NCBI GenBank assembly: GCA_902624015.1
Contig: CACNVV010000003.1
Span: 1-35,000 of the forward strand
Reading direction: 5' to 3'
Length of the DNA: 35,000 nucleotides
Source of the DNA: an uncultured Pelagibacteraceae bacterium
GTDB taxonomy: Bacteria; Pseudomonadota; Alphaproteobacteria; Pelagibacterales; Pelagibacteraceae
The notes below the pieces were generated by a model. It saw only the letters and a list, made by a program, of their open reading frames with translations, was not told where the DNA came from and did no database searches. A program made the position numbers and the translations under genes. Below, one piece after another: positions 5,023 to 34,660 of the stretch. Every line of letters starts with the position of its first letter. Position 1 is the stretch's first letter.

Positions 5023-6207
5023 TTAACCATCCACACTATTTAAAGATTTATTGACCAAATCATGAATATCAGGAAATTTTTTGTTATTTTGCCATAATAT
5101 TCCATTACAATTTGCATTATTTGCAGCTGACAAATCTCTAGGATCATCACCAATAAAAAAAGTCTTATCTAACCTAAAATAAAATTCTTTAGATGCTTTC
5201 AGCAGCATTCCAGGCTTTGGTTTACGACATAAACAACCATCATTCCAATTGTGAGGACAAAAGTATACTTTTAATATTTTTATTCCATCTAATTTAAATT
5301 TTTTAATCATATTTACATGAATTTTTTTTAGGTTTTTTAACTTAGTTTCACCTCTTCCGATGCCAGCTTGATTTGATATGATTATAAATTTAAAACCTTT
5401 TTTTGATAGTTTTTTTAATGAGTTGTAAGTTCTTGGTATAAAAAAAAACTCGGACCAAAAATTTATATATCTTGCTTTTTTTGCTTTAAAATTGATTACT
5501 CCATCCCTATCAATTAAAATAATCTTTTTGGGAGATAAATATTTTTCTGCTACCTTAAGTCTTTTTTTATCTGAAATACTATAATAACTATCTTCAGTTT
5601 TGAGTGCAGAAATTTGCTTCTTTTTTGTTAAGGTTCGTAATATTTCTGATAGATTACAATTTTTATTCTTAAATTCTTTAAAAAGATTATTTTTTTTAAT
5701 TATCATATAACCTATTTCAACTAAAGTATTTTTAGCAGATCTTTTAATTGTAAAATTTTTCACAATTCCTTTTTTTGATATTGAAATATTTCCTGGAGAT
5801 TTAGAAGCAACAGTCAACGTTATACTAAGACCATTTTTTCTATGAAATTTTTTAATCTTATTTAAATTAAAACATGAAAAATTATCTGAATAAAGCAACA
5901 AAAATTCTTTATCTATTAGTTTTTTTGATTCCCACAATCTACGGCCTGTATCCCAATTTACTGGCCCACTTGAATAAGATATATCTAATCCAAACTTTTT
6001 TCCATTTCCGACTTTTTTCTTTAGTAGATTTCCCAAATAACCTGTTAATAATAAAACTCGCTTAATTCCTTGTGATTTAAGTTGTTTTAAAATGTAATAA
6101 ATAAATGGTTTTCCGTTCAATAGAGCCAAAGGTTTTGGAATTTTATTTGTCATCGGCCTTAATCGCGTACCCAGACCACCACAAAGAATAACTGTTTGTA
6201 TTGTCAT
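5023..6207 (-). CDS. Bifunctional heptose-1-phosphate nucleotidyltransferase / heptose 1,7-bisphosphate 7-phosphatase fusion (HddC-GmhB type)
   Basis: The protein has 394 residues and two domains. Residues 1 to about 225 are a sugar-nucleotidyltransferase with GGLGTRLRP (10-18), PKPL (25-28) and YSDN (106-109) for nucleotide and metal binding. From about 227 onward is a HAD phosphatase: DRDG (233-236) with both catalytic Asp, SNQAGIGRG (278-286), and the zinc-binding set C317, H319, C325, C327 followed by KPKPGM, then GDDPRD (353-358). The zinc loop is typical of GmhB-like D,D-heptose bisphosphate phosphatases. Together the domains could remove the C7 phosphate and form GDP-heptose, working with the HddA-like kinase at 13580-14566. 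No GmhA isomerase is in the window. Domain calls are firm; the heptose substrate is inferred from GmhB similarity and context. Confidence 0.8.
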   Translation of the reverse strand: MTIQTVILCGGLGTRLRPMTNKIPKPLALLNGKPFIYYILKQLKSQGIKRVLLLTGYLGNLLKKKVGNGKKFGLDISYSSGPVNWDTGRRLWESKKLIDKEFLLLYSDNFSCFNLNKIKKFHRKNGLSITLTVASKSPGNISISKKGIVKNFTIKRSAKNTLVEIGYMIIKKNNLFKEFKNKNCNLSEILRTLTKKKQISALKTEDSYYSISDKKRLKVAEKYLSPKKIILIDRDGVINFKAKKARYINFWSEFFFIPRTYNSLKKLSKKGFKFIIISNQAGIGRGETKLKNLKKIHVNMIKKFKLDGIKILKVYFCPHNWNDGCLCRKPKPGMLLKASKEFYFRLDKTFFIGDDPRDLSAANNANCNGILWQNNKKFPDIHDLVNKSLNSVDG

Positions 6208-6244: not shown

Positions 6245-7282
6245 TTAATGATTTTTTGATCTTAAATTGTTATCAATTTTATTATTCTCAATTAATGACT
6301 TTAATTTAATAAGTCTATTCGTCTTAAATCCTCTAAAATCATTCTCTGAAAAATTATTACTTCTAAAAAATTCTACTAACTGAATACCTCCATCACTTAA
6401 ATTCCATTTTGGTTTATACCATTCGCCTAGTTCATTGAATATTTTATCAAAAGAAACTTTATAAGTTCTGGAATCTTTTCCATGCTCACCAGTATAAATC
6501 ACTCGTGATCCTTTTACACTTTTGGTAGCCGCTTCAGCAATATCCTTGACTGTATAATTTCCATTTTTAACTCCTATATTATATGATTTGCCTGAAACAA
6601 TTGATTTTGGTGCATCAATTCCTGCTATAAATGCATCACAAACATCTTGAACATGGATGATTGGCCTCCATGGTGTTCCGTCACTTTTGATCTCAATTAT
6701 TCCAGTTGTATAAGCACATGCAACAAAATTATTAAATACAATATCGCATCTTAATCTTGGACTAGCTCCAAAAACTGTTGATGGTCTAAAACAAACTACC
6801 GTGAAATCACTACTACAAATTTTTTTTAATTCAATTTCTGCTAACCACTTAGTTTTTGCATAAGCAGTCAGTGGATTTTTCTCGCTGTTGTCTTCTTCTA
6901 GCTCAGCATCTCCCAAAGCAACACCATACATGCTTTGAGATGATGCATATATAAATCTTTTTACACCAAGATGTTTAGCTAATTTAGCAATTTTTACTGT
7001 TGCTAAAAAATTTATATCTTCGGTTAAATAAGGTTTAAATTCTCCCAGCGGGTCATTTGATAATCCCGCAAGATGAATTATTGCATCTACCTGGTTTAAA
7101 TCTTCTGCTTCAATATCTCGAATATCTTTTTTAATTTTTTTAAATTTTTCATTTGTTTTTGATATTAGACAGTCCGAATAATACCCGATATCATAACCTA
7201 TAACTTCATGACCTAACTCCTCTAATTTTTTTGTCAATACACTCCCAATATACCCTTCGCTACCAGTAACTAAAATTTTCAT
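6245..7282 (-). CDS. NAD-dependent nucleotide-sugar epimerase/dehydratase (extended SDR)
   Basis: The protein is 345 residues long from the chosen ATG. It starts directly with the NAD-binding strand and GSEGYIG, an extended-SDR glycine motif, and has the catalytic YAKTK (Y-x-x-x-K), a preceding SSQSMYG Ser region, and GTPWRPIIHVQD, typical of the substrate-domain boundary in sugar epimerases and dehydratases. The ATG at 7280-7282 is preferred over a TTG two codons upstream because a purine-rich AGAGG sits 6 nt before it. It lies between the ABC exporter and the HddC-GmhB fusion, so a role in tailoring a GDP-heptose-derived sugar is plausible. Whether it is a 4,6-dehydratase, epimerase or reductase cannot be read from sequence alone. 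Confidence 0.85.
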   Translation of the reverse strand: MKILVTGSEGYIGSVLTKKLEELGHEVIGYDIGYYSDCLISKTNEKFKKIKKDIRDIEAEDLNQVDAIIHLAGLSNDPLGEFKPYLTEDINFLATVKIAKLAKHLGVKRFIYASSQSMYGVALGDAELEEDNSEKNPLTAYAKTKWLAEIELKKICSSDFTVVCFRPSTVFGASPRLRCDIVFNNFVACAYTTGIIEIKSDGTPWRPIIHVQDVCDAFIAGIDAPKSIVSGKSYNIGVKNGNYTVKDIAEAATKSVKGSRVIYTGEHGKDSRTYKVSFDKIFNELGEWYKPKWNLSDGGIQLVEFFRSNNFSENDFRGFKTNRLIKLKSLIENNKIDNNLRSKNH

Positions 7283-7288
7283 AATCAA

Positions 7289-9193: not shown

Positions 9194-10132
9194 TTAAACA
9201 TTTCCATATTTAGAATTTACTAGCATTTTATATCCTTTCATTAGTTCAAAAATACCATCATCTAAAGTGTGTTTTGGTCTCCATCCAGTTGACTCAATTT
9301 TTTTATTAGAAACAATATAATTTCTCTGATCTGGATCTTTTGCCATTGGAGCATCCATAATTATAAAATTTTTTATTTGCAATTTAATTCTTTCACAAAG
9401 TTCAAGTTTTGATAAATTAGCATCTGACAAGCCTACATTAAATATTTCACCTTTCATTATTTCAAAATTATTTAATGCATGAATAAAAACTGAAGCGACA
9501 TCTTTAACGTGAATATAATTTCTTTTAAAATGGCTTTCATATAATACAATGAACCCATCCTTCAAAGCTCTATAAACAAAATCATTTACCAATAGATCTA
9601 TTCTCATTTTTGGAGACATTCCAAACACTGTAGCAAGCCTAAAACTTATAGAATTATTTCTTTCCATAAGTTTTTTTTCAACTGCTACTTTGTCTAGCGC
9701 GTACTTTGAAATTGGATTTAATGGAGATTTCTCGTCACAGAAGTTATCTTTATTTCCAGATCCATAAGCACTGTTGGTTGTAGGCATTAAAACAATTTGG
9801 TCATCTTTCACTGCATCTAACATAAACATTATTGCATCATGATTAACTGTCTGAGCTCCTGTCATATCTTTATTGCAGAGTGGAGCACCCACATATCCCG
9901 CTAATGGAATTATGACTTCAGATGAAAGATAGTGTGGTGTAATTAATTTCTCATGACGAATATCACAATTTATAATTTTAAAATTTGGATGTGAGCAGCA
10001 GTGATTTAAACTTGTTTGACTAAACATAAAATTATCAACAACAGTAACTTTATGTCCTAGTTTTAAAAGTTCTGGAACCAGTATAGAACCAATGTATCCA
10101 GCCCCACCAGTTACTAAAATATTTTTTTTCAT
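9194..10132 (-). CDS. NAD-dependent nucleotide-sugar epimerase/dehydratase (extended SDR)
   Basis: This 312-residue enzyme has a textbook NAD-binding GGAGYIG (about 9-15), a PTTNSAYG segment around the catalytic Ser/Thr and YALDK as the Y-x-x-x-K catalytic pair, followed by FRLATVFG and a conserved RNYIHVKD boundary motif. It belongs to the extended SDRs that act on nucleotide sugars. The gene follows the HddC-like nucleotidyltransferase by 36 nt and precedes the ABC exporter by 20 nt, so it is part of the heptose-type operon running from 14566 to the left. It could act as a 4,6-dehydratase, C4 reductase or epimerase on the GDP-sugar; the reaction is not resolved. Confidence 0.85.
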   Translation of the reverse strand: MKKNILVTGGAGYIGSILVPELLKLGHKVTVVDNFMFSQTSLNHCCSHPNFKIINCDIRHEKLITPHYLSSEVIIPLAGYVGAPLCNKDMTGAQTVNHDAIMFMLDAVKDDQIVLMPTTNSAYGSGNKDNFCDEKSPLNPISKYALDKVAVEKKLMERNNSISFRLATVFGMSPKMRIDLLVNDFVYRALKDGFIVLYESHFKRNYIHVKDVASVFIHALNNFEIMKGEIFNVGLSDANLSKLELCERIKLQIKNFIIMDAPMAKDPDQRNYIVSNKKIESTGWRPKHTLDDGIFELMKGYKMLVNSKYGNV

Positions 10133-10168: not shown

Positions 10169-10867
10169 TCAATTTTTTAAAAATTCGCTTGCACGAAAAT
10201 AATCTGAAGGAATACCAATATCTAAAAATTTGCCTTTTTGTCTAACTCCTGCAACTATATATTTTTGTCTAATTAAATCTGGCAATATATCCTTCTCAAG
10301 AGAACATTTTTTTTTATATTTATGACTATTTTTATTAATAATTTTTGGATCCATCAAATACACACCTCCATTTGCTAAATTTGATAATTTTTTATTTGAT
10401 TGTTTAATTCCTGTCAGCCAATTTAAGTCATTGGTTATCACTTGTCCATATCTATCTAACTTATTGTTTTCAAATAAAGCAATAACAATACCTGCATTTA
10501 TTTTTGTTTTAAATTTTTTTAATTTTTTTAAAGATACATCAAAAAATGTATCACCATTTATAACAATAAAATCTTCATTCATTGTTTTTGAAAGAATAAT
10601 TAAACCCCCACCAGTTCCTAAAGGAATTTTTTCTTCTAAATATTCTATGGAAACACCTTTATATTTTTCTCCAAAAAAATTTTTAATATGATTTTTTAGA
10701 TATCCTACAGATATAACAAATTTTGTTATACCTTGTTTTATCCAAAAATTTAAAATAAATTTTAAAAAAGGTTCACCATTAATTGGTGCCATTGGTTTTG
10801 GAACTTCACTAACCACACTTCTGAGCCTGGTGCCTAATCCACCTGCTAATATATACGCAACTGTCAT
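10169..10867 (-). CDS. hddC: Sugar-1-phosphate nucleotidyltransferase, HddC-like
   Basis: The protein is 232 residues long, the usual size of single-domain HddC-type enzymes. It carries the activator/nucleotide loop LAGGLGTRLR (7-16), the PKPM lysine (about 23-26), a G-T-G-G-G segment and the metal-binding NGDTFFD. It ends with a K-F-L-D-I-G-I-P-S motif common in heptose-1-phosphate guanylyltransferases. It would couple NTP (GTP in the family) with a sugar 1-phosphate. The gene sits 5 nt after the PLP 3-dehydratase-like gene. A second nucleotidyltransferase domain is fused to the HAD phosphatase at 5023-6207, so the two may serve different sugars or partly overlap. Confidence 0.75.
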   Translation of the reverse strand: MTVAYILAGGLGTRLRSVVSEVPKPMAPINGEPFLKFILNFWIKQGITKFVISVGYLKNHIKNFFGEKYKGVSIEYLEEKIPLGTGGGLIILSKTMNEDFIVINGDTFFDVSLKKLKKFKTKINAGIVIALFENNKLDRYGQVITNDLNWLTGIKQSNKKLSNLANGGVYLMDPKIINKNSHKYKKKCSLEKDILPDLIRQKYIVAGVRQKGKFLDIGIPSDYFRASEFLKN

Positions 10868-10872
10868 AATAA

Positions 10873-12057
10873 TTAATTAACACTATTTAAAATTGAACAG
10901 ATCTTATCAATTTCTTTTTTTTTAATATCTGGGAAATTACCAATATAAAAACCATAGTAATGGATGTGTTCAACATTTGGAAAATTTTTGTGAAGTTTTT
11001 TTGAAACTATTTTTTCTAAATAAGGTTGTCTAATTTGGTTTCCACCTCCAGCACTTCCTCTTCTAAATTCAATACCATTTTTTTTCATTTTATATATTAA
11101 TTTTTTCACAAAAACTTTATTTGGTTTTTTTAAAATCAAATTAAAAGCATAATTACTAGATCCCCTTAAATCAAAATCAGTATAATAAATTTCAGGATCT
11201 ATTTTTTTCAAAAAATATTTTAAATTTTGTGTTCTTTTATAAATATTTTTATCTAATCTTTTTAACTGGCTTATTCCCATAATTGCAGCTATTTCTGTAT
11301 TCCTGAGATTATATGCAGGAAACGCAAAGATAAAATCAGGATTCAAGTTTGGATACTTTTTAATATATTGATTTTTAAATTTTTTATCATCTGACTCTCG
11401 TACCATACCGTGAGAACGAAGCAATCTAGCCTTTTGATAAGCGATTTTGTCATTGGTACAAAACATTCCTCCTTCAATAGTTGTCATATGATGAGCATAG
11501 TAAAAAGAAAAGTTTGATATCCAGCCTAGGCTTCCTAATTTTTTATTTTTATGCTTTGCTCCGTGAGACTCACAAACATCCTCAATGATTGGAATCTTTT
11601 TTTTTTTTGCTTCATTTAATAGCTCATCGGTTAAACCATTAAATCCTTGAACATGAGTAAGAAAAATACACCTAGTTTTTTTATTAATTTTTGAAATAGT
11701 TTTTTTTGAGTCTATAGCGAGTGTTTTTGGATTAATATCAATAAATATTGGCTTAAATCCGTTTTGAATTACAGATGAAATATCTGAAACCCAAGTTAAA
11801 GGCGGCACAATTACCTCACCACCCTCTGGAAATTTGGTTTTAAGTATTGCCATACTTAACAAATTAGCTGAAGAACCTGAATTAACAAACACGCTATATT
11901 TAATACCTAACCATTTTGACCACTTGTCTTCAAACTCTCTAACTTTTTTTCCATTAGTTAAAATTGGATCATTTCCTTTTAAATACCTGATTATTTTATC
12001 TAAATCTTCTCTTAAAATATTATTCCTCATTAAAGGAAATTGAATTTTTTTTTTCAT
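10873..12057 (-). CDS. DegT/DnrJ/EryC1-family PLP enzyme with His replacing the Schiff-base Lys (ColD-type sugar 3-dehydratase)
   Basis: The protein is 394 residues with a fold-type I aspartate-aminotransferase architecture: NSGSSANL (59-66) for phosphate binding, IIEDVCESHG (157-166) with the pyridine-binding Asp160, and the active-site segment FYYAHHMTTIEGG. In sugar aminotransferases the first His of this segment (His189) is the PLP lysine. A His here is the hallmark of ColD and of E1/RfbH, which use PMP to remove the C3 hydroxyl of a 4-keto sugar. Length and lack of a C-terminal cysteine cluster favour the iron-independent ColD type over E1. It overlaps the Wzz-like gene by 1 nt and precedes HddC. 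The substrate is probably a GDP-4-keto sugar, perhaps a heptose; this is inference. Confidence 0.8.
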   Translation of the reverse strand: MKKKIQFPLMRNNILREDLDKIIRYLKGNDPILTNGKKVREFEDKWSKWLGIKYSVFVNSGSSANLLSMAILKTKFPEGGEVIVPPLTWVSDISSVIQNGFKPIFIDINPKTLAIDSKKTISKINKKTRCIFLTHVQGFNGLTDELLNEAKKKKIPIIEDVCESHGAKHKNKKLGSLGWISNFSFYYAHHMTTIEGGMFCTNDKIAYQKARLLRSHGMVRESDDKKFKNQYIKKYPNLNPDFIFAFPAYNLRNTEIAAIMGISQLKRLDKNIYKRTQNLKYFLKKIDPEIYYTDFDLRGSSNYAFNLILKKPNKVFVKKLIYKMKKNGIEFRRGSAGGGNQIRQPYLEKIVSKKLHKNFPNVEHIHYYGFYIGNFPDIKKKEIDKICSILNSVN

Positions 12058-13019
12058 TAACTTATTAATTTTGTTCTAACGATTATTTTAAAAAATATTA
12101 ATACAAAATAAATCAAAAAACCAAATATAATTCCTTTAATAAAGTGATTTAAATGATTTACTCTTTTTGTATCATTTTCAATTTTTAATATAGGATCCCA
12201 TTCAAAAAATTTATTTTTTTCATCATCTGTAAAAGTATTATCACCCTCTAAAATACTTTTTTGTTTTAATTTTTGGTCATTATAGAGATTTTGCAATTCA
12301 TCTAAGTCTTTTTTATAAAGCCTTAACTTTTTATTTAATAAATCAGTATTGAATACCAATATTAAATTCTCTTTATCTGCACTAGACATTTCCAAATTTT
12401 CGTTAATCAGGTTATTTATTGATGAATTTAGTAAATAGTTTCCATCCAAAATTTCTAATGAATTTTCAGTTGAATTAATTTTTTCAACTGTGTTTAATTC
12501 TGATAAATTGATAAAATAAAACAATAATTCTTTAATTGTATATTGAACATATGAATTTAATAATTCTAATCCATCAGTATCATTCGAGTGTTCAACTTTT
12601 AATTCATAAAAATCTAAATTATATGCATTTTTTAATTTAAAATTATTTGAGTCGTATAAAAAATCAGAAAAACTATTTATTATTATATTTTTCTTTTCCT
12701 TTGACAAAGATTGTTTTTTATATTCGCTGATAAATTTTTTGAAATTTTTAATCGAAGTAAGCCTTGTAATAAATAAATATTCAAAATTATTTCTAGCTTC
12801 TCCTAAATTTAAACTATCCTTCGAGAACTTATTAAAATAATTTTCAAAAATTGGTGCAGTTTTTGTCAACCAAACTGCTGTGTAATATCTATCAATATTT
12901 TTATGAGAATATGAAAAAAAAATAATTCCAAAAATTAAAGGTAAAAATAGAATATTTATTTTACCAAAGTAGAAATATTTTTTGTAAAATGTTTGATATA
13001 ATTTTTTATCTTTATCCAT
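12057..13019 (-). CDS. Wzz-like polysaccharide co-polymerase / chain-length determinant (putative)
   Basis: The 320-residue protein is predicted as two membrane segments flanking a large polar domain: about 21-37 near the N-terminus and 293-314 close to the C-terminus, with a Lys/Asn/Glu-rich, mostly helical region between, including a likely coiled coil near 225-255. This is the topology of Wzz/PCP proteins that control glycan chain length from the periplasmic face of the inner membrane. Sequence identity to known Wzz is not obvious by eye, so the call rests on topology and position. The ATG at 13017-13019 is preferred to a TTG two codons upstream. The downstream PLP gene overlaps by 1 nt. 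Confidence 0.6.
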   Translation of the reverse strand: MDKDKKLYQTFYKKYFYFGKINILFLPLIFGIIFFSYSHKNIDRYYTAVWLTKTAPIFENYFNKFSKDSLNLGEARNNFEYLFITRLTSIKNFKKFISEYKKQSLSKEKKNIIINSFSDFLYDSNNFKLKNAYNLDFYELKVEHSNDTDGLELLNSYVQYTIKELLFYFINLSELNTVEKINSTENSLEILDGNYLLNSSINNLINENLEMSSADKENLILVFNTDLLNKKLRLYKKDLDELQNLYNDQKLKQKSILEGDNTFTDDEKNKFFEWDPILKIENDTKRVNHLNHFIKGIIFGFLIYFVLIFFKIIVRTKLIS

Positions 13020-13085
13020 TGTCAAAAAGTAAATTATTATTTAGTATTTTCTAATAAAAAATAGCATTTTTTACACATATCTATG

Positions 13086-13562
13086 TTATTTGTCTCTTTT
13101 ACTCAATATTATACCTTTTTTTAAAGGCCAATTAATATCTAATCTACTATCATTCCATTTTAATACTTTTTGCGATTTTACATCTGAGTACTGTCCTTTA
13201 TATGATAGTTTATAATGAAATACACATTCTTTTGATAAACACAAATGACCATTTGCAAAATAGGGTGGCACTAAAACTTGAATATTATCTTTAGCATTTA
13301 GGTTTATTGAAAAAGATTTTAGAAAATTTTTAGACTTTTTTCTACAATCAACAACCACAAAAAATACCTTGCCATACACGCAACTAATTAGTTTCCATGT
13401 TTTATGATCATAATGGAGACCTCTTAGAACTTTTTTTTTTGAAATTGAAAATTTATCGTGATTAAAAACTAATTTTAATTTTTTATTCTTCTGCCAAGAA
13501 GTCCACAAGGTTCCTCTATTATCTTTAAAAATTGAGCTTTTAAAAACTTTAATTTCTCTCAT
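13086..13562 (-). CDS. RmlC-like dTDP-sugar epimerase family cupin
   Basis: The protein has 158 residues. It has the cupin core of the RmlC family: DNRG near residue 14, LRGLHYD with His50, then a VVVDCR strand with Asp72, and PPYFANGH in place of the usual P-x-G-x-A-H-G region. RmlC-type enzymes epimerise C3 and/or C5 of 4-keto nucleotide sugars through the His/Asp pair. The usual length is about 180, so this is on the short side. It lies 17 nt after the HddA-like kinase, and the sister gene at 31143-31673 is longer and more canonical. A role in epimerising a GDP-heptose 4-keto intermediate is plausible, but not shown. Confidence 0.75.
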   Translation of the reverse strand: MREIKVFKSSIFKDNRGTLWTSWQKNKKLKLVFNHDKFSISKKKVLRGLHYDHKTWKLISCVYGKVFFVVVDCRKKSKNFLKSFSINLNAKDNIQVLVPPYFANGHLCLSKECVFHYKLSYKGQYSDVKSQKVLKWNDSRLDINWPLKKGIILSKRDK

Positions 13563-13579: not shown

Positions 13580-14566
13580 TTATCTTAATTCCTGATTATA
13601 TATTATTTGTGATCCTATTTTATCAAAAGATACTGGAACAGTTATATAGTTTTTAAATGCTTCCTCTAAAACTTTTCTTTTTTTATTATCTATGAAAAAA
13701 ACCATAAATCCTCCCCCACCTGCGCCAGTAATTTTTCCTGCGTATGCACCATTTTTTATTCCAATTTTATAAATTTGATTTATTTTACTATTAGCAACTT
13801 CCTCAGATAATTTTTTTTTATACCACCAATATTCATTCATTAATTCTGAAAAGTCATCAACTATGTTTTTAGAATAATAAATTTTTTCTTCGGCTCTATC
13901 TGTGATTTTTTGAATTTCTTTATAATAACTTTCTTTATAAGAAATTTTTTTTATTTTTTGTTTTTCAATTTTTTGAGCACTCCTTTGAAAACCAGTAAAA
14001 ATTAAAAAAATGCTTTTTTCTAATTTTTCAATATTTTTTTTTGAATTTACTGGCTTAACTTCTATAAAATCTGAATTAAAATTAATCACATTAAATCCAC
14101 CGAATGCTGCAGTCATTTGATCTTGAGAACCAACATGCTCTTTTATTTTATTTTGTTCAATGTCTATTGCTTGCATTGCAAGACTTTTTTTTGAAATCAA
14201 TTCATTATTAATTGCACCCAAACAATTTAAAAGGCCTACAGTAAAACTTGAGCTTGCACCTAATCCAGATTGTGCTGGAAGATCAGCATTATGAACAATT
14301 TCTAAATTATTTTTAAATTTTTTATACTTGATTGTCTCTCTTATACTTGGGTGTTTGATTTGATCAATTTTGGAAACATGTTCGTCTTTAAAATATCTTA
14401 ATCTATAATTATATTTAAAAAATGGTGGTAAAATTCTTGCTGAAATATAACAATACTTATTAATTGCAGTAGATATTACTTTTCCTCCATTTTTAAAATA
14501 CCATTGTGGAAAATCAGTGCCTCCACCAAAAAAAGAAATTCTAAAAGGGGTTCTTGAGACAATCAT
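13580..14566 (-). CDS. hddA: GHMP kinase, D-glycero-D-manno-heptose 7-phosphate kinase-like
   Basis: The protein has 328 residues. It begins with RTPFRISFFGGGTDFP (5-20), the signature of the HddA-type GHMP kinases, then the ATP-binding GLGASSS (101-107), a GSQDQMTAAFGG catalytic region and the C-terminal GAGGGGFM motif 3. HddA phosphorylates heptose 7-phosphate at C1 to the 1,7-bisphosphate, the substrate of the GmhB-type phosphatase domain found at 5023-6207. It is the first gene of the left minus-strand transcript, facing the E1-alpha gene across a 130-bp divergent region. A fucokinase-like role is an alternative in this superfamily, but the heptose partners nearby argue for HddA. Confidence 0.8.
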   Translation of the reverse strand: MIVSRTPFRISFFGGGTDFPQWYFKNGGKVISTAINKYCYISARILPPFFKYNYRLRYFKDEHVSKIDQIKHPSIRETIKYKKFKNNLEIVHNADLPAQSGLGASSSFTVGLLNCLGAINNELISKKSLAMQAIDIEQNKIKEHVGSQDQMTAAFGGFNVINFNSDFIEVKPVNSKKNIEKLEKSIFLIFTGFQRSAQKIEKQKIKKISYKESYYKEIQKITDRAEEKIYYSKNIVDDFSELMNEYWWYKKKLSEEVANSKINQIYKIGIKNGAYAGKITGAGGGGFMVFFIDNKKRKVLEEAFKNYITVPVSFDKIGSQIIYNQELR

Positions 14567-14696: not shown

Positions 14697-15596
14697 ATGA
14701 ATTTTCAAAATTATAACATTTTAAAGCTAAGCTATAATCAAAAAAATATAGAACTACTTAAAAAAATTTTTTTTAAAATGTCTTATATTAGACAATTTGA
14801 GCTTAGAGCTTATGAGAGTAGATTAGAAAAAAAATTTGAAACATTAATATACTTATGTCTTGGTCAAGAAAGTATATATAGTACAGTTGCTCTATCTATT
14901 AAAAATTCTATATCATTCGGACAACACAGGGGTCACGGAATTTATCTAGCTAATGGAGGGAGTCCTAAAAAATTGGTGGATGAGTTAATAGGGCTTAATA
15001 CTGGCACAAATAAAGGTATGGGAGGGTCTCCTCCAATATTTGATAAAAAAATCGGAATGTATGGGCACGTTGGATTAATTGGTGATCAAGTGCCAGTAGC
15101 TGCAGGATATTCATTGGTGAATAAAAGCAAAAAAACAATTTGTTATTTTGGAGATGGAGCTGCTGAAGAAGATTATGTATTAGCTACTTTCGGATTTGCA
15201 TCTCAGAAGAAACTAAATATTTTATTTATTTGTGATGACAACGACCTATCAGTTTTGACCCCAACAAAAGACAGAAGGTCATGGAAATTGGTAGATGTAG
15301 CAAAATCTTTTGGGATAAATGCTATAGATATCACTGATGATCCTTTAACTATATATTATAATATTAAAAAAATTGAGAAAAAAAATGTACCTGCATTAAT
15401 TAATATTAGAACGTGCAGAGAATATTGGCATGAGGGTGCTGGGAAGGATAAGGAGGGAAAATACTTTTGGTCAAGATATAAAATTGTTAAAAAAATCTTA
15501 GAAAATAAAAATCAAGAAAAATTTGTTAATAGCACAGAAATGCTTCACAAAAAATGGTCAAAAAAATTATGGGAAAAACAGTTGCAGAAACTATAA
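14697..15596 (+). CDS. Thiamine-diphosphate-dependent dehydrogenase E1 component, alpha subunit
   Basis: The 299-residue protein has the E1-alpha features in order: LGQES (55-59), QHRGHG (76-81), GMGGSP (107-112), and the thiamine-diphosphate/Mg site GDGAAEE (152-158) followed after 24 residues by DDND (180-183) in place of the more common N-N. E1 enzymes decarboxylate 2-oxo acids and pass on the acyl group; members in sugar loci may instead act on sugar-derived or ketoacid substrates. It is shorter than metabolic E1-alpha (about 350-400). No E2/E3 genes accompany it. The beta subunit follows with overlapping ends. The plus-strand orientation separates this operon from the rest. Confidence 0.85.
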   Translation: MNFQNYNILKLSYNQKNIELLKKIFFKMSYIRQFELRAYESRLEKKFETLIYLCLGQESIYSTVALSIKNSISFGQHRGHGIYLANGGSPKKLVDELIGLNTGTNKGMGGSPPIFDKKIGMYGHVGLIGDQVPVAAGYSLVNKSKKTICYFGDGAAEEDYVLATFGFASQKKLNILFICDDNDLSVLTPTKDRRSWKLVDVAKSFGINAIDITDDPLTIYYNIKKIEKKNVPALINIRTCREYWHEGAGKDKEGKYFWSRYKIVKKILENKNQEKFVNSTEMLHKKWSKKLWEKQLQKL

Positions 15597-16480
15597 GAGA
15601 TATTTCTAAAAAGCACATCGAAAAAAACAAAGGTGTAATCATGGGTCAATGTTTAAGTGCTGTTGGATGGGTGCAAAATACAGTTCCCGCCCAAAAAAAA
15701 GGTATAATCGAATTCCCTATGACTGATGTAGCAGGAGCAGGCTTCGCTGTAGGTGCTGCAGTTGGTGGAAGGAAGCCTATATTCATTTTAAGATTTCAAA
15801 GTTTTTTGTGGTTAAATGCTAGTCCTCTAATAAACAATGCTGCTAAATCAAAAGAGATTTTTGGGTATTCAGCACCTGTTTTTATAAGAGCAATAGCATC
15901 TGAGGGTATAAGTTCAGGTCCAATTCATACAAACTGTTATCACTCCCCATTTGCTCACATGCCTGGACTACCAATTTGTGCTCCAATGACACCTAAGGAG
16001 TATAAAAAAATATGGCAATTCTTTAAAAAGTCTGACTTACCTTTGCTTGTGAGTGAGCATAGAAGATCATACAAAGAAAAAAAAGAATTTATAGACGACA
16101 TTAACAAAAATTCAAAAGTTACTTTGTTTCTTATATCTGCAGTAAGATTTCAATCTTTAGAAATAAAGAATAAATTAAAAAAGCTTGGTATTACAGCAGA
16201 TATTTTTCATTTACTTTGGTTAAAACCATTTAATATTAAAAAAAAATATATAGATTCATTAAAGAAAACGAAAAAAGCTATAGTAATTGACTCAACTTAT
16301 GAAATATGTGGTATATCAGAACATATTGCTTACAAACTGATGAATAAAGTTAAAGGAACGAAAGTTATAAATTTAGGAATGAAAGATAGATCCCCAGGAT
16401 GTTCGGTTAAATTTATAAACGGAACTCCATCCTCTAATGAAGTATGTAAAAAAGTTTCAAAATTAATCAATAATAAGTAG
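15554..16480 (+). CDS. Thiamine-diphosphate-dependent dehydrogenase E1 component, beta subunit / transketolase-like
   Basis: The 308-residue protein comprises a pyrimidine-binding transketolase domain (about 1-170) and a C-terminal transketolase domain (about 180-300). The segment EFPMTDVAGAGFAVGAAVGG corresponds to the E1-beta region that normally contains the catalytic Glu activating the cofactor; here the equivalent residue appears to be Asp58. GPIHTNCYHSPFAHMPG matches the beta-subunit His loop, and LKPFN the C-terminal domain. It overlaps the alpha gene by 43 nt; an alternative ATG at 15569 (M-G-K-T-V) would reduce this to 28 nt and gives a more typical N-terminus. The coupling indicates an alpha2beta2 complex. 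Function in this glycan context is unknown. Confidence 0.85.
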   Translation: MVKKIMGKTVAETIRDISKKHIEKNKGVIMGQCLSAVGWVQNTVPAQKKGIIEFPMTDVAGAGFAVGAAVGGRKPIFILRFQSFLWLNASPLINNAAKSKEIFGYSAPVFIRAIASEGISSGPIHTNCYHSPFAHMPGLPICAPMTPKEYKKIWQFFKKSDLPLLVSEHRRSYKEKKEFIDDINKNSKVTLFLISAVRFQSLEIKNKLKKLGITADIFHLLWLKPFNIKKKYIDSLKKTKKAIVIDSTYEICGISEHIAYKLMNKVKGTKVINLGMKDRSPGCSVKFINGTPSSNEVCKKVSKLINNK

Positions 16481-16481
16481 T

Positions 16482-18005
16482 ATGAGTAAATTAGATGCAT
16501 TGCTAATAACCCCTCCTTCTAGACTAGAAGTTTATCAAAAAGAATTAGCTAACAAATATGCTGCTATAGAACCTCCAGTTTGGTCTTCTTTAATTGCAAA
16601 ATATTTAATTAAAAGAAACTTCAATGTAAAAATCCTTGATGCAGAAGCAGAATTTTTAACTCATAAGCAGACTGCAGAAAGAATTGTGAAAGAAAATCCA
16701 ACTCTGGCAATTTATATGGTTTATGGTCAACAACCTTCAGCTTCAACCCAATGCATGCCTGGTAGTAATAAAGTATGTAATTATGTTAATGAATTATCTA
16801 ACAATGATATTTTATCTATCGTAGTTGGAACACATGCCTCAGCTCTTCCAAGACAAACTTTAGAAAATGATCCTTATAATTTTGTGTGTCAAGGTGAGGG
16901 TCCAATAACAATTGAAAAATTAATTAATAACATTAAATCTTCAAAACCCTCAATTTCACAAATTGAAGGTTTATGGTTTAAAGATAAAAAAACTGGAGAG
17001 ATAGTTGGCAATAAAAGATCGGAAATGTTTCAAAATTTAGATGAAAACTTATCTGGTCAAGCATGGGATCTCTTGGACATGAGTAAATATAAGGCTCATA
17101 ACTGGCATACATTTCATGATCTTAAAAGTCGAAACAAATATGCCTCGCTACAAACAAGTTTAGGATGCCCATTTAAATGTAGTTTCTGTTGTATTAATGC
17201 TCCATTTGAAAGAAATGCAATAAGGTTTTGGTCACCAAAACACATAATTAAAGAACTAGAATTTTTAGTTAATGAACATGGAATTTGTAACATAAAAATT
17301 CCAGACGAAATGTTCGTTCTAAACCCAAAGCAAGTAAATGGAATATGTGATGAAATTTTAAAAAGAGGACTTGGTGATAAATTAAATTTTTGGGCTTACG
17401 CGAGAATTGACACATTAAATGACGATGAAATGCTAAAAAAAATGAATAAATCAGGATTTAGATGGTTAGGCATTGGAATTGAGTCTAGTTCTAAACATGT
17501 AAGAGATGGGGTAACAAAAGGTAGATTTGCAAATTATGATATTGAAAAAATTGTTAAAAAAGTAAGAGATTTAGGATTTTATGTTGGAGCAAATTATATT
17601 TTTGGTTTACCAGATGATGATGAGTCCTCAATGAGAGAAACTTTAGATATGGCTCTTAATATAAATAGTGAGTGGGCAAATTTTTATTCTGCTATGGCGT
17701 ATCCTGGATCACAACTCTACCCGCTAGCAAAAGAAAAAAAATGGAGACTACCTGATGATCCAGGTGGGCCAGGATGGATAGGATATTCTCAGCACGGGTA
17801 TGATACTTTGCCATTAAGAACTGAAAAGATTAAAGCATCTAAAGTGCTAGATTTTAGAGATAAAGCGTTTGATGAGTATTTTAAGAACTCTAAATATTTA
17901 GATATGATAAAATCTACTTTTGGAGAAAATACAAAACAACATATTGAGGAAATGACAAATCATAAAATTAAAAGAAGACATCATGATCATGATGTAGAAT
18001 ATTAA
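16482..18005 (+). CDS. B12-binding-domain radical SAM enzyme
   Basis: The 507-residue protein starts with an N-terminal cobalamin-binding-like domain: LLITPPSR (7-14), the conserved IEPPVW block near residue 30, and VVGTHAS with CQGEG (136-140). A radical SAM domain follows with CPFKC..C, cysteines at 229, 233 and 236 in the CxxxCxxC arrangement, then GIGIES and FGLPDDDE motifs. The usual D-x-H-x-x-G cobalamin ligand is not evident, so B12 may be bound base-off without a protein ligand or not at all. Members include methyltransferases and ring-rearranging enzymes. It follows the E1-beta stop by 1 nt, so the three plus-strand genes form one operon. The C-terminal His/Arg-rich tail (KRRHHDHDV) is unusual. 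Confidence 0.85.
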   Translation: MSKLDALLITPPSRLEVYQKELANKYAAIEPPVWSSLIAKYLIKRNFNVKILDAEAEFLTHKQTAERIVKENPTLAIYMVYGQQPSASTQCMPGSNKVCNYVNELSNNDILSIVVGTHASALPRQTLENDPYNFVCQGEGPITIEKLINNIKSSKPSISQIEGLWFKDKKTGEIVGNKRSEMFQNLDENLSGQAWDLLDMSKYKAHNWHTFHDLKSRNKYASLQTSLGCPFKCSFCCINAPFERNAIRFWSPKHIIKELEFLVNEHGICNIKIPDEMFVLNPKQVNGICDEILKRGLGDKLNFWAYARIDTLNDDEMLKKMNKSGFRWLGIGIESSSKHVRDGVTKGRFANYDIEKIVKKVRDLGFYVGANYIFGLPDDDESSMRETLDMALNINSEWANFYSAMAYPGSQLYPLAKEKKWRLPDDPGGPGWIGYSQHGYDTLPLRTEKIKASKVLDFRDKAFDEYFKNSKYLDMIKSTFGENTKQHIEEMTNHKIKRRHHDHDVEY

Positions 18006-18038: not shown

Positions 18039-18551
18039 TTATAATATTTTTTTACTTATTAAATATAAGCATAAAGCTGATATTACACCTGGTGTTAAAG
18101 AATTATCTTTTTTAACAATTTCTAAAATTTTTTTATTATCAATCCAAAAAAGATTTCTATTTGAAAATTCACTGTTATCTATTTTTGATTTAAGCTTTGT
18201 AAAATAAACAAAATCTGAACCACAGTCGTAATTACCATTTCTTTTAAATTTTTTCACCAAAATCCAGTCTTTACCTTTAATGCCAGTTTCTTCAAATAAT
18301 TCTTTCTTAATTGTTGAAAGAGGTGATAATCTCTTTTCAACCACACCTCCTGGAAGACTCCAAACAAATTTTTTGAATGCACGTCTATACTCTTTGCATA
18401 ATAAAACCTTATTATTATTCTGAACTACCACCATAGTTCCGTTAAGAAGCTTAATATTATGAAAATTATTAATTATTTTTTTGTTATGTCTATAGCTTTC
18501 TGTGTAAACTTTGACATATGGATAAAAACTATAAACTAGTTTTTTATTCAT
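18039..18551 (-). CDS. Nudix hydrolase
   Basis: The protein has 170 residues. A Nudix box is visible at about 68-91: PGG followed by KELFEETGI, with the metal-binding Glu pair at 87-88. The usual Glu in the first half of the box is Leu, and the Arg of R-E is Lys, so this is a slightly divergent box. Preceding strand VLLCKEYRRAF resembles the ADP-ribose/GDP-mannose pyrophosphatase group. It probably hydrolyses a nucleotide diphosphate sugar. It is the last gene of the minus-strand transcript, overlapping the cupin gene by 4 nt and converging on the radical SAM gene only 33 bp away, with no obvious hairpin terminator between. Confidence 0.8.
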   Translation of the reverse strand: MNKKLVYSFYPYVKVYTESYRHNKKIINNFHNIKLLNGTMVVVQNNNKVLLCKEYRRAFKKFVWSLPGGVVEKRLSPLSTIKKELFEETGIKGKDWILVKKFKRNGNYDCGSDFVYFTKLKSKIDNSEFSNRNLFWIDNKKILEIVKKDNSLTPGVISALCLYLISKKIL

Positions 18552-19234
18552 TTAATAAATCTAAAAAGTTTTAATTCTTTGCCTATTTTAAATCTCTTTG
18601 ATAATTTTCTTAATGTTCCAGTTTTAACAATATCGCCAGAATTAAGTACAGATTTATTTTGGCTATCCACAACTGTTCCTGATAATATTCCAAAAATATC
18701 AGTATCTTTATATTTGATTATTTTTTTAAAATTTTTATGCACCTCATAATAAAAAACTCTATTTTTTACTTTTATTGTCTGGCTTTGAGCAGATTTATTA
18801 ATTTTGATGATATCTTTTCCCCTTTTTTTCTCAAAAAATTTACCAGTTTCATAAGGTAACTTTTTTCTTCCAAAACTGTCTGAAAACCTAACTAAATCAT
18901 TTTTATCTACAGGTGTTTCAAACTCTAAAGCTATTAAACCTTTTTTTGATAAAGAAGTAGTTTTATGAAACAACCCATTTCTTATCATTAATTTAGAATG
19001 TCTGTTGAAGATTTTTTGACCAGAATTATATAATCCAAGTTGTATTTTGGCCTTGCCATCAAGTAAAACAAAACCAGTTTTTTTTTTAGGATGACAGTGA
19101 AGTGAAGTTGATTTTTTGTATTTTATAAAAAGTATTGTTACAGCAATTTCTTTTTTATTTCTATAAATTACATATTCCCTACCCCAGGGTTTTTTTATGA
19201 TAAAATTATCATAAACACTTTCTTTAACTTTCAT
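18548..19234 (-). CDS. Cupin-domain protein, mannose-6-phosphate isomerase type II-like
   Basis: The 228-residue protein opens with KKPWGREYVIY (14-24), the sequence style found at the start of type II phosphomannose isomerase cupin domains, followed by HCHPKKK with His46 and His48 as metal ligands, and a second cupin motif around RNGLFHKT with His90. A C-terminal part (about 150-228) may be another beta-rich cupin-like half. The usual Glu in the first motif is not evident. It might be an isomerase, an epimerase or a sugar-binding cupin. It overlaps the DJ-1 gene by 11 nt and the Nudix gene by 4 nt, so it belongs to a tightly coupled unit. Confidence 0.7.
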   Translation of the reverse strand: MKVKESVYDNFIIKKPWGREYVIYRNKKEIAVTILFIKYKKSTSLHCHPKKKTGFVLLDGKAKIQLGLYNSGQKIFNRHSKLMIRNGLFHKTTSLSKKGLIALEFETPVDKNDLVRFSDSFGRKKLPYETGKFFEKKRGKDIIKINKSAQSQTIKVKNRVFYYEVHKNFKKIIKYKDTDIFGILSGTVVDSQNKSVLNSGDIVKTGTLRKLSKRFKIGKELKLFRFIK

Positions 19235-19757
19235 TACCTAATTTTTTTATCACTGCTGCCATCCAGGGTCCCATATCCTTGTAATGTGCGGTAGTTATAT
19301 AATTTTTATCTTCAACTACTTCTAGGTCTCTGTATGTTGCTTTCGCATTTTCTATATCAATTTGTAGACTATAATAACCAGAAACTATTCTATCTTTAAT
19401 AACATTCGCACTTATCATCATTTGTATTCCACTACATATGCATGCAACTAATTTTTTTTTTTCACAAAATATTTTAATAAATTTTATAAATTCTTTTTCC
19501 AATCTTAATTTTTCCATAGCTTTAACACCACCTGGAATTACCAAAAGATCATATTTATCTGGTGAAATATCTGAAATTTTTTTTACTTCATGAGTTTTGT
19601 TTGGAGGTAATCGGGTTCCTAAAATTCCCATTACAGCCTCACCACTTGGTGTGCAAACGTCTACTTCAATTCTTTCCTCTAGTAATCTGTAAAAAGGATA
19701 AATAAATTCATGATCTTGTGCTAGCTCTCCTGTAAGAATAATAGCTTTTTTTTTCAT
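19224..19757 (-). CDS. DJ-1/PfpI family protein
   Basis: The 177-residue protein has the DJ-1/PfpI layout: an opening AIILTGELAQDHE strand with the conserved acidic residue, VIPGG (73-77), and ACICSG (105-110), where Cys108 at the nucleophile elbow is the probable catalytic Cys. The residue after it is Ser, where many PfpI proteases have His. Family members act as glyoxalases, deglycases, amidotransferase-like enzymes or hydratases; the Ser makes protease activity unlikely. The presence in a sugar operon suggests reaction on a sugar-linked substrate. The gene lies 29 nt after the oxygenase and overlaps the cupin gene. Confidence 0.8.
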   Translation of the reverse strand: MKKKAIILTGELAQDHEFIYPFYRLLEERIEVDVCTPSGEAVMGILGTRLPPNKTHEVKKISDISPDKYDLLVIPGGVKAMEKLRLEKEFIKFIKIFCEKKKLVACICSGIQMMISANVIKDRIVSGYYSLQIDIENAKATYRDLEVVEDKNYITTAHYKDMGPWMAAVIKKLGNES

Positions 19758-19786
19758 AATAATTTTATAATTAATATTTGAATTAT

Positions 19787-20692
19787 CTACATTTTCAACT
19801 TTAAAGTTTTAACTACTTTAGAGGTGTAATGAGAATATACAGATTTCTTTTCTGCAAACTGTTCACTTTCATACTGTCCAGCATCAACAAATTCATCAAT
19901 TCCAGTTTTAGGAATTGAGTCTCTATATTCAGCTATCCTATCATCATGAGGCATGTGCTCTCCAACAAAAACTGTAGTATCTATAGATAGTCTTGTCTTA
20001 GAGTTGTTAGTTCTGTTCGTATTATGAATTAGCGCATAATCAGATATATAAATATTACCTGGAGTAGGTTTCAAATTATTTATTGGTTTATATTCTTTTA
20101 AAACCCATTGCATTTGATCATAAGTAGGTGACGTTTTTAAAAATTCTTCTTTAAACTCATTTGCAGGTTCGTAATATAATAGATTATTATTATGTGTATC
20201 CCCCATTAAAGGAACAAAACAATTCATCCCCCACGGTCCCTCAACCCAAGCATCAGAATGTGGTATTGAAGTACTCAAACCTCTTCCCACATTATCTTCT
20301 AGTTCTTTACCATACTTTACCCTAATGTTGGGTGTTGTTCGAAATAACTTTAATAACTTTTCATCATTAGAAACCATATTTTTAATTATATCTGACCAAG
20401 CTCTTAAAATCATATTATATTCAAGATGAAATTCGCGTTTCGGTACTACACCTCCATTAGGAGTTATGTTTTTTCTATTTTTCTTATTTTTGTCAACTTT
20501 TTCTAAAAAAGTTTTTTCGTCATCAACAAATTTAAAATTTAATGCTTTTGAAACATAAAGCTTGATATTCTTAATCAATTCTTCAAATTTATCTTCTGGA
20601 ATTTTGTAGGTGACCATCAAATCGTGGCTTTTTTTTAATCCCCAGTTTTTTGATATTTTATTAATTCTTTCCTTACGATACTTTAAACTCAT
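19787..20692 (-). CDS. Fe(II)/2-oxoglutarate-dependent oxygenase, phytanoyl-CoA hydroxylase (PhyH) / StrG-like
   Basis: The 301-residue protein has the facial triad of non-heme iron oxygenases: PHSDAW with His145 and Asp147, and ALIHNTNR with His223, followed by KTRLSID, where Arg234 would bind 2-oxoglutarate. Several stretches, such as WGMNCFVPL and PGNIYISDYALIHN, resemble proteins annotated as StrG in streptomycin-type clusters, as far as I can judge by eye. A role in oxidising a sugar residue (hydroxylation, ring oxidation or epimerisation) is reasonable. The ATG at 20690-20692 overlaps the stop of the upstream methyltransferase-like gene by one base, so the two are coupled. Confidence 0.75.
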   Translation of the reverse strand: MSLKYRKERINKISKNWGLKKSHDLMVTYKIPEDKFEELIKNIKLYVSKALNFKFVDDEKTFLEKVDKNKKNRKNITPNGGVVPKREFHLEYNMILRAWSDIIKNMVSNDEKLLKLFRTTPNIRVKYGKELEDNVGRGLSTSIPHSDAWVEGPWGMNCFVPLMGDTHNNNLLYYEPANEFKEEFLKTSPTYDQMQWVLKEYKPINNLKPTPGNIYISDYALIHNTNRTNNSKTRLSIDTTVFVGEHMPHDDRIAEYRDSIPKTGIDEFVDAGQYESEQFAEKKSVYSHYTSKVVKTLKLKM

Positions 20693-34655: not shown

Positions 34656-34660
34656 TATAA

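Follow-up and report, generated by a model that had tools for sequence, protein, structure and literature searches.

The stretch of DNA analysed here (the window) comprises 35,000 nucleotides of contig CACNVV010000003.1 from an uncultured Pelagibacteraceae bacterium. It carries the gene of a DegT-fold protein with a histidine, His189, at the position where aminotransferases of this family have the Schiff-base lysine. The protein is predicted to be a C3-dehydratase of a GDP-4-keto-heptose that uses pyridoxamine 5'-phosphate (PMP) and pyridoxal 5'-phosphate (PLP). Around it lie genes of GDP-heptose type, a two-part thiamine pyrophosphate (TPP) enzyme and a radical S-adenosylmethionine (radical SAM) enzyme (Table 1). 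An earlier interpretation made from the letters of the window (the sequence-only reading) named HddA-, HddC- and GmhB-like neighbours, an RmlC-like epimerase and two short-chain dehydrogenases/reductases (SDRs). All of these are present, and the GmhB part is fused to a nucleotidyltransferase. That reading also proposed an AT-rich, probably marine host, which agrees with a GC content of 26.1% in the window; the organism is very probably a SAR11 relative. Papers are cited below by PMC number.

Table 1. Predicted sugar-pathway genes of the window, with position, strand and the match on which each name is based
Predicted product	Position	Strand	Size or best matches
Nucleotidyltransferase and GmhB-like phosphatase fusion	5023..6207	-	PF00483 and HAD-type domains; GmhB 145 bits, cut-off 178
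Second SDR, possible keto-reductase	6245..7288	-	Best PDB match 6vo6, 118 bits; SSQSMYG; no 4,6-dehydratase acid motif
Cj1427-like SDR, predicted GDP-heptose C4-dehydrogenase	9194..10132	-	phmmer 368 bits to 6vo6
HddC-like nucleotidyltransferase, predicted heptose-1-phosphate guanylyltransferase	10169..10867	-	NCBIfam HddC best, 180 bits, cut-off 300
DegT-fold His189-type protein, predicted PMP/PLP-dependent C3-dehydratase of GDP-4-keto-heptose	10873..12057	-	394 aa
RmlC-like cupin, predicted C3/C5 epimerase	13086..13562	-	RmlC 115 bits, cut-off 156
HddA-like GHMP kinase, predicted heptose-7-phosphate kinase	13580..14566	-	NCBIfam HddA 153 bits, cut-off 600
TPP enzyme alpha part, E1-alpha type	14697..15596	+	PF00676 82 bits; nearest PDB entry pyruvate dehydrogenase (PDH) E1 alpha, 70 bits
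TPP enzyme beta part, E1-beta/transketolase type	15554..16480	+	PF02779 and PF02780
Radical SAM enzyme with B12-binding-type domain	16482..18005	+	PF02310 and PF04055

The dehydratase matches Pfam family DegT_DnrJ_EryC1. Residue 189 is the first histidine of FYYAHHMTTIEGG (FYYAHHM), and in phmmer alignments it lies opposite the residue mutated in the H188N and H188K crystal structures of ColD, as their PDB entry titles name it. The Schiff-base position is a histidine in all 72 close open reading frames (ORFs), a close ORF being one with at least 43% identity over more than 250 residues; the 72 include duplicates and copies of the window. At the same position, the remaining 63 DegT ORFs have lysine (36) or histidine (24), and three are not readable. 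His189, His190 and the flanking residues are invariant in 31 of 31 rows of the alignment, and this conservation rules out chance for the His189 observation. The histidine at the lysine position, as described in the sequence-only reading, is confirmed. ColD is the best PDB sequence match of the protein (190 bits, against 118 bits for E1, by phmmer) and is identical to it at 116 of 357 positions (32%) in the printed part of ColD. It also gives the top Foldseek matches of the computed model (mean predicted local distance difference test score, pLDDT, 93), with TM-scores of 0.84-0.89 and 30-31% identity. Residues 187-189 are the sole stretch of at least three residues with pLDDT below 50, so the side-chain geometry there is not read from the model. 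The only cysteines are C130, C162, C200 and C387. All eight RfbH/E1 proteins compared (8 of the 15 found, L124-L131) have CxC at +31/+33 and a cysteine at +41 from the histidine, and the window protein has none there. Membership in E1 is disfavoured by this missing motif, by a score of 195.8 bits to the RfbH NCBIfam model, below its curated cut-off of 423, and by a different clade. The sequence-only reading had likewise seen no Fe-S cysteine cluster and favoured the ColD type, to which the protein is indeed nearest by sequence and fold. PMP-dependent elimination of the C3 hydroxyl with histidine as the base is established for the family (PMC8987622, PMC10440746).

Phylogenetic analysis places the protein in a clade of its own. 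In a 95-row tree the close clade (55 rows) stands on a 100/100 branch and the Lys enzymes separate at 100/95. A 56-row tree, which used 19 close rows, 12 Lys rows and the eight RfbH proteins, splits the Lys enzymes from all His enzymes, ColD and RfbH included, at 100/100 and recovers the close clade again at 100/100. There the clade is nearer ColD than RfbH, weakly (92/74, 88/91). The alignment and tree against ColD, RfbH and Lys enzymes, proposed as a check with the sequence-only reading, were thus run and show no clustering with ordinary aminotransferases; the grouping with ColD and RfbH argues for a His-type C3-dehydratase, as that reading had it. We regard the protein as probably a ColD-type C3-dehydratase of a separate subfamily, a judgement that belongs to the whole explanation given below. 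A close tie to the 3,6-dideoxyheptose enzymes of Campylobacter, to whose sugars the sequence-only reading pointed, is not supported. For the dehydratase of serotype HS:5 a published comparison gives 62-67% identity to the ColD-type enzymes from E. coli O55:H7 and Y. pseudotuberculosis IVA (PMC10440746), and this enzyme is placed on the ColD branch because of that figure. With 32% identity to ColD and its own 100/100 clade, the window protein does not appear to have the Campylobacter heptose dehydratases as its closest kin.

A scan of genome contigs found 37 loci that encode relatives of the dehydratase with 44-67% identity. Of these, 22 are labelled Pelagibacteraceae or Pelagibacterales, and the other labels include Bradyrhizobium, a beta-proteobacterium, Nitrospinaceae, Flavobacteriaceae, Oscillatoria, Limisphaerales, Syntrophomonadaceae and Bdellovibrionaceae; several are labels of metagenome-assembled genomes and possibly wrong. 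At an E-value of 1e-90 or better, a relative is encoded in 24 of 397 sampled genomes from the order (about 6%), in 2 of 385 from the class and in 8 of 398 from the phylum, the genome of the window counted. A more distant His-type DegT protein (36% identity; locus L067, genome G018) lies beside a split transketolase, with Cj1427-like and HddA genes absent from the stretch. Relatives also occur in 83 phage records, all below 60% identity, 54 of them from Synechococcus phages. The best 12 phage rows listed hold homologues 37-38% identical (for example KU686212.1 164019-165095), two of which are annotated as putative CDP-4-keto-6-deoxy-D-glucose-3-dehydrase. Phage relatives of the Cj1427-like SDR, eight rows of which are listed, show 27-30% identity.

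The gene two downstream of the dehydratase encodes an SDR whose match to 6vo6, which we take to be Cj1427, spans its whole length. It has a TNS.YG/YxxxK pattern that is free of the acid of dehydratases, and the 4,6-dehydratases of sister loci have a glutamate at that site (STSE, SSSE, STPE). T118, N120, S121, Y123, Y144 and K148 are invariant in 22 SDR rows (the window and 21 of the 29 loci having the gene), with no acidic residue in the motif; this is stated from the 22-row alignment because the first motif patterns skipped some rows. The 4,6-dehydratase motif is absent from both SDRs of the window. A search for gmd gave no match in the genome, which is 73% complete, and was positive in 14 of 14 control genomes. 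Because the Cj1427-like SDR lacks the dehydratase glutamate and gmd was not found, a 3-deoxy sugar that would retain its 6-hydroxyl is favoured. The sequence-only reading predicted a GDP-3-deoxy- or GDP-3,6-dideoxy-heptose; the GDP-heptose-like context and the 3-deoxy product stand as predictions, while the 3,6-dideoxy form is disfavoured because the operon has the Cj1427-like C4-dehydrogenase and no 4,6-dehydratase by motif. The HddA-like kinase has as its best PDB match 4n3o, a putative D-glycero-D-manno-heptose 7-phosphate kinase, and the cupin matches RmlC-type epimerases best, among them GDP-4-keto-heptose 3- and 3,5-epimerases. Between the dehydratase and the epimerase, positions 12057-13025 encode a 322-residue protein with no Pfam or NCBIfam match, which by eye could be a chain-length regulator.

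Cj1427 forms 2-hydroxyglutarate, and a Solidesulfovibrio plasmid cluster described below includes an annotated L-2-hydroxyglutarate oxidase. Cj1427 turns over with alpha-ketoglutarate (PMC10680097) and the C3-dehydratase releases alpha-ketoglutarate from glutamate (PMC10440746), so that each step could supply the other. An in vitro combination of Cj1427 with the HS:5 enzyme has given compound 33, GDP-D-glycero-3-deoxy-4-keto-heptose, with a printed m/z of 616.08, under a heading that terms the products novel (PMC10680097).

The same genes recur around other members of the close clade. The ORFs of all loci were scored with profiles from the first locus set, with cut-offs chosen after that set had been viewed. 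Excluded from the counts were redundant copies, which share more than 85% of their 5-mers, DegT ORFs with an alignment shorter than 300 residues, and loci L001, L002, L003, L050, L052 and L053. A set of 36 loci has at least 5 kb of flank on both sides; 20 of the full 56 were dropped from it for a shorter flank. Within 5 kb in the 36 loci we find TPP enzymes in 30, the Cj1427-like SDR in 27, HddA in 27, the B12-type radical SAM enzyme in 23, the nucleotidyltransferase in 22, RmlC in 14, GmhA in 12, a GDP-fucose-synthase-like gene in 5, GMD in 4 and SDR18, another putative 4,6-dehydratase, in 3. The TPP enzyme is present in 19 of the 24 loci in which the pattern was discovered and in 11 of the 12 fetched later. 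Control loci, taken mainly from genomes of the window's order, have it in 1 of 11 cases around other His enzymes (GMD in 4 of 11) and in 3 of 16 around Lys enzymes, one of these three being the neighbour of a close-clade gene. Fisher tests give p between 2e-4 and 7e-6; these values ignore kinship and are a guide only. A chance neighbourhood is disfavoured by the later-fetched loci and by the two control groups.

Within 8 kb the loci can be grouped by their SDR. The Cj1427-like gene occurs without a 4,6-dehydratase in 23 of the 36, and these have HddA in 23, TPP in 23 and radical SAM in 22. Eight loci have a 4,6-dehydratase, with radical SAM in none, TPP in five, HddA in four and the Cj1427-like gene in four; the five with neither gene have radical SAM in one, TPP in three and HddA in one. 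When all 56 loci are counted, with the truncated ones among them, the Cj1427-like gene stands without a 4,6-dehydratase in 35 (HddA 31, TPP 32, radical SAM 29), 13 have a 4,6-dehydratase, and HddA, TPP, radical SAM and the Cj1427-like gene stand all together in 29. A radical SAM gene beside a 4,6-dehydratase is thus rare (0/8 well-flanked, 2/13 of all) and common where there is none (23/28 and 32/43). Strict exclusion of the two held in the 36 well-flanked loci and failed over the 56, through L015 and L096. All 23 Cj1427-like loci free of a 4,6-dehydratase are Pseudomonadota by label or by kinship to the window. Outside Pseudomonadota we find the full set in L012 and L016, labelled Oscillatoria and Flavobacteriaceae respectively; Solidesulfovibrio has it around another His dehydratase.

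The TPP pair and the radical SAM gene were left unconnected in the sequence-only reading. Both recur in most relatives, and they change the predicted product. A TPP enzyme lies within 8 kb of the dehydratase in 46 of the 56 loci of any flank length, as a split transketolase in 24, a short E1 pair in 12 and a full E1 type in 10; one of these ten, in L012, is a fused chain. The domain types are confirmed by Pfam for representatives, and some loci that are truncated or weak gave a score for just one part of the pair. In 40 of the 46 loci the dehydratase shares its strand with one or more TPP genes, and in 11 a TPP gene is its direct neighbour. In the family of the window's beta part, the three of seven rows in which the pattern was read have an aspartate at the pyrimidine-domain motif, where other TPP types have glutamate. 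A simple pattern search of the 56 loci found no lipoyl or E3 motif. On a 55-row tree of the dehydratases the TPP type changes 14 times, against a minimum of 2 and a mean of 18.3 in shuffled data, a value as low being reached in 3 of 200 shuffles. The types appear partly inherited, yet repeated replacement by an enzyme of like chemistry is needed to account for their pattern. With three types and 14 changes, what seems to be conserved is the chemistry and not any single gene.

Such enzymes are associated with branched sugars elsewhere. YerE is reported to add a C4 acetyl branch, and AviB1/AviB2 and Pau11/Pau12 are proposed to do so (PMC4753412); for eurekanate a heterodimeric PDH-like enzyme has been hypothesised (PMC10338323). 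A review describes two-subunit branching enzymes and gives the split transketolases, which are likewise proposed to branch keto-deoxy sugars, as 13 Streptomycetes sequences; it places YerE among the decarboxylase-type, acetolactate-synthase-like TPP enzymes (PMC12247030). Positions 25253-26176 of the window, beside an SDR, encode an acetolactate-synthase-like protein; its 307 residues match a model of 557 positions over the first half only. Hypervariable region 2 (HVR2) of SAR11, from which surface genes are known, includes an acetolactate synthase (PMC2217521).

The radical SAM enzyme may catalyse methyl transfer or an AprD4-like diol dehydration, as judged from sequence and model. Its NCBIfam scores (BchE 139 bits, HpnJ 126, AprD4 76) are all far below cut-off; AprD4 comes first in a PDB profile search with 78.5 bits, and in Foldseek TsrM and AprD4 rank about equally (model mean pLDDT 87). 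The rarity of this gene beside a 4,6-dehydratase hints at a substrate that keeps its 6-hydroxyl, and the radical step may act at the C6-C7 end. Four genes follow at 18039-20692, for NUDIX, cupin, PfpI-like and unassigned 301-residue proteins, all with relatives in L034. In the annotated clusters of Azospirillum and Solidesulfovibrio, too, NUDIX genes lie near the kinase or the radical SAM gene. An ABC exporter resembles PglK (272 bits, cut-off 1000).

A tblastn search of plasmids with the Cj1427-like SDR gives seven records of 53.7-58.9% identity, after which identity drops to 34% (best 14 of 667 rows). The clusters were read by hidden Markov model scoring and annotation, the seventh record, from Sinorhizobium, carrying no annotation. 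In six of the seven, five Azospirillum and one Solidesulfovibrio magneticus, a TPP pair lies no more than 9 kb from the SDR. A His-type DegT protein is present in five of the six, 47-50% identical to ColD in four Azospirillum and 33% in S. magneticus; in A. argentinense it lies about 16 kb from the SDR, and in Azospirillum sp. B510 no DegT gene was found within the stretch fetched. The HddA-like kinase is within the stretch in four of the six, and, apart from the two plasmids named below, two more have the radical SAM gene elsewhere on the same plasmid, beside a kinase. The record from Sinorhizobium fredii CCBAU 25509 has the SDR, HddA and Lys-type DegT proteins and no TPP pair. From these clusters, the pathway step seems to be kept even with a dehydratase from another His branch.

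Several observations weigh against the explanation favoured below. The TPP and radical SAM genes (14697-18005, plus strand) diverge from the dehydratase operon, and in 6 of the 46 loci all TPP genes are on the strand opposite the dehydratase. A TPP enzyme is absent within 5 kb in 6 of the 36 loci, and with the limit set at 8 kb 5 of the 36 and 10 of the 56 still lack one; L111, L073, L039, L110 and L114 have none within 8 kb at the 100-bit cut-off, with matches of 70-75 bits below it in L073 and L039. The TPP types are more clustered on the dehydratase tree than expected by chance, and according to the review no split transketolase has been characterised in vitro on sugar ketones (PMC12247030). 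The radical SAM gene is within the stretch in only two of the six plasmids (A. argentinense and S. magneticus). The p-values overstate independence because SAR11 relatives dominate the sample. The division by SDR is also not perfectly clean: in 4 of the 23 loci counted as free of a 4,6-dehydratase an SDR reaches 100-147 bits against the SDR18 profile (cut-off 400), and 2 of the 8 with a 4,6-dehydratase have weak radical SAM matches of 48-58 bits (cut-off 400). The 4,6-dehydratases in 8 of 36 and 13 of 56 loci suggest that the clade may use more than one substrate, and because the genome is only 73% complete, one could be encoded at an unlinked site. For the HddA-, HddC- and GmhB-like proteins the heptose families are best or near best, all below the curated cut-offs. 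No gmhA was recognised in the window, and the sole match elsewhere in the genome is below cut-off.

The explanation we favour, and consider probable, is that a GDP-heptose is oxidised at C4, deoxygenated at C3 and then probably branched at C4. The HddA-, GmhB- and HddC-like genes would supply the GDP-heptose, and the Cj1427-like dehydrogenase would make the 4-keto substrate, so that the 6-hydroxyl would be kept. In the dehydratase, L-glutamate would aminate PLP to PMP, whose amine would form a ketimine with the C4 ketone of the GDP-4-keto-heptose. His189 would then remove a proton from the cofactor as the C3 hydroxyl departs, and hydrolysis would give GDP-3-deoxy-4-keto-heptose, ammonia and PLP. 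The computation itself shows the fold, the His site, the clade and the gene partnership; family membership points to this C3 dehydration, to the GDP-heptose substrate and to the C4 oxidation. The C4 ketone would probably not be merely reduced; gene partnership suggests that the two-part TPP enzyme would add a two-carbon acyl unit to it. By the same partnership, the 4-C-branched 3-deoxy-heptose might be modified further by the radical SAM enzyme, and it would then be exported into a surface polysaccharide. More tentatively, and with somewhat less than an even chance in our judgement, several phyla share a five-part pathway on GDP-heptose, with C4 oxidation, C3 deoxygenation by the ColD-like subfamily, two-carbon branching at C4 by split transketolases or E1-type enzymes that replace one another, and a radical step perhaps at C6-C7, whose product would be a 9- or 10-carbon branched 3-deoxy surface sugar. 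The chemistry would conceivably also allow a carbocycle to close between the branch and C7, with no direct support.

Bradyrhizose was considered as a product of this kind. It is a ten-carbon bicyclic O-antigen sugar of photosynthetic Bradyrhizobium (PMC9912281), and its genes are reported as unknown save for an 11-gene cluster (PMC4743980). The predicted skeleton of 7 + 2 + 1 carbons resembles it. Of 265 genomes in the genus of genome G421, five have the close clade and 27 have photosynthetic reaction-centre genes, and among the five both occur only in G1188. G421 itself carries the same cluster as Bradyrhizobium sp. LHD-71 (L009, L118). A search of 18 of the 27 photosynthetic genomes at a looser cut-off found any match in seven, with G1188 the only close one. 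The co-occurrence of the clade and photosynthesis genes does not support bradyrhizose as the product.

Other products would use fewer of the genes. An unbranched 3-deoxy-heptose, epimerised at C5 by the RmlC-like protein and reduced at C4 by the second SDR or another reductase while the TPP pair works on a different residue or provides a precursor, is a lesser though real possibility: both genes are present, Cj1427 and the HS:5 dehydratase have yielded GDP-3-deoxy-heptoses in vitro together with C4-reductases (PMC10680097), and a GDP-fucose-synthase-like gene of C4-reductase type is found in 5 of 36 loci (5 kb) and 10 of 56 (8 kb). What speaks for branching instead is that the TPP pair, in three interchangeable types, accompanies 23 of 23 well-flanked Cj1427-like loci free of a 4,6-dehydratase and is absent from the Sinorhizobium cluster, where a similar dehydrogenase and kinase stand with a Lys-type DegT protein. 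We think it rather unlikely that the pathway yields a 3,6-dideoxy-heptose like that of Campylobacter HS:5 by means of a 4,6-dehydratase whose gene lies at another place in the genome. Such an enzyme is nearby in 8 of 36 (13 of 56) clade loci and the assembly is incomplete, yet gmd was not found in it, the operon SDR is of dehydrogenase type, and the window has the radical SAM gene that is rare beside a 4,6-dehydratase.

That the sugar is not a heptose at all, the HddA- and HddC-like proteins acting on another sugar and the dehydratase on its 4-keto form, seems improbable. The HddA, HddC and GmhB scores below curated cut-offs would allow it, but the heptose families converge in the clade loci (HddA in 27, nucleotidyltransferase in 22, GmhA in 12 and Cj1427-like in 27 of 36) and heptose enzymes are, or are among, the closest solved relatives. 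That the protein acts as an aminotransferase or has lost its activity is very hard to reconcile with its grouping with ColD and RfbH, apart from the Lys enzymes, and with the invariance of H189, H190 and the flanking residues (31/31); in its favour are the DegT family membership and the report that the SpnQ dehydratase can transaminate without its reductase (PMC8987622).

Other sugar genes lie further away in the window. A second DegT gene, of Lys type (SFNATK), at 30015-31138 is split between two overlapping frames, as a frameshift or a fault in the assembly would produce. At 28164-29150 there is a second HddA-like kinase (147 bits, below cut-off). This kinase, an SDR and the split DegT gene suggest a second GDP-heptose-type branch in the region. 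Translations of 592-2022 and 33495-34939, read by eye, include a CMP-sugar synthetase-like gene, an epimerase resembling NeuC and a NeuB-type SAF domain, from which the region probably also makes a nonulosonic acid.

The dehydratase represents a new subfamily of a known type of enzyme; of greater weight is its place in a recurring gene set that we did not meet in the literature. A literature search, mostly without subscription journals, found no paper that joins GDP-heptose, a C3-dehydratase and a TPP branching enzyme. If the favoured explanation is true, the in vitro combination of Cj1427 and a C3-dehydratase becomes a natural pathway, and thiamine-dependent sugar branching is extended to heptoses. 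It would also provide a gene signature for an undescribed SAR11 surface sugar, with Azospirillum relatives in which the chemistry can be tested, and would supply many split transketolases for the question whether these enzymes branch sugar ketones.

Among known systems, ColD (WbdK), the GDP-4-keto-6-deoxymannose 3-dehydratase of E. coli, has the same fold and catalytic histidine and likewise no Fe-S cysteine motif. The window protein differs in its 32% identity and its own clade, and its partners are heptose-type genes and a C4-dehydrogenase, not GMD. E1/RfbH, the CDP-4-keto-6-deoxyglucose 3-dehydratase, shares the catalytic histidine and distant homology at the profile score given above; it has the cysteine motif that the window protein lacks and belongs to another clade. 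The GDP-heptose C3-dehydratase of Campylobacter jejuni HS:5/HS:11 has in common the GDP-4-keto-heptose context and the same predicted reaction, but it is of the ColD branch and its natural substrate is a 6-deoxy sugar made by a 4,6-dehydratase (PMC10440746). The in vitro pair of Cj1427 and HS:5 dehydratase carries out the same two steps as predicted here; it mixed enzymes of two serotypes, whereas the window has both genes in one cluster (PMC10680097). AviB1/AviB2, Pau11/Pau12 and KbDH alpha/beta, all two-part, and the single-chain YerE are likewise TPP enzymes beside deoxysugar genes, and each adds, or is proposed to add, a two-carbon unit to a keto-deoxysugar. Like them, the window pair has TPP-binding and pyrimidine domains and, by simple motif search, no E2/E3 partners. 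Those enzymes are described from hexose or pentose pathways; here the partners are of GDP-heptose type, and many of the pairs are split transketolases.

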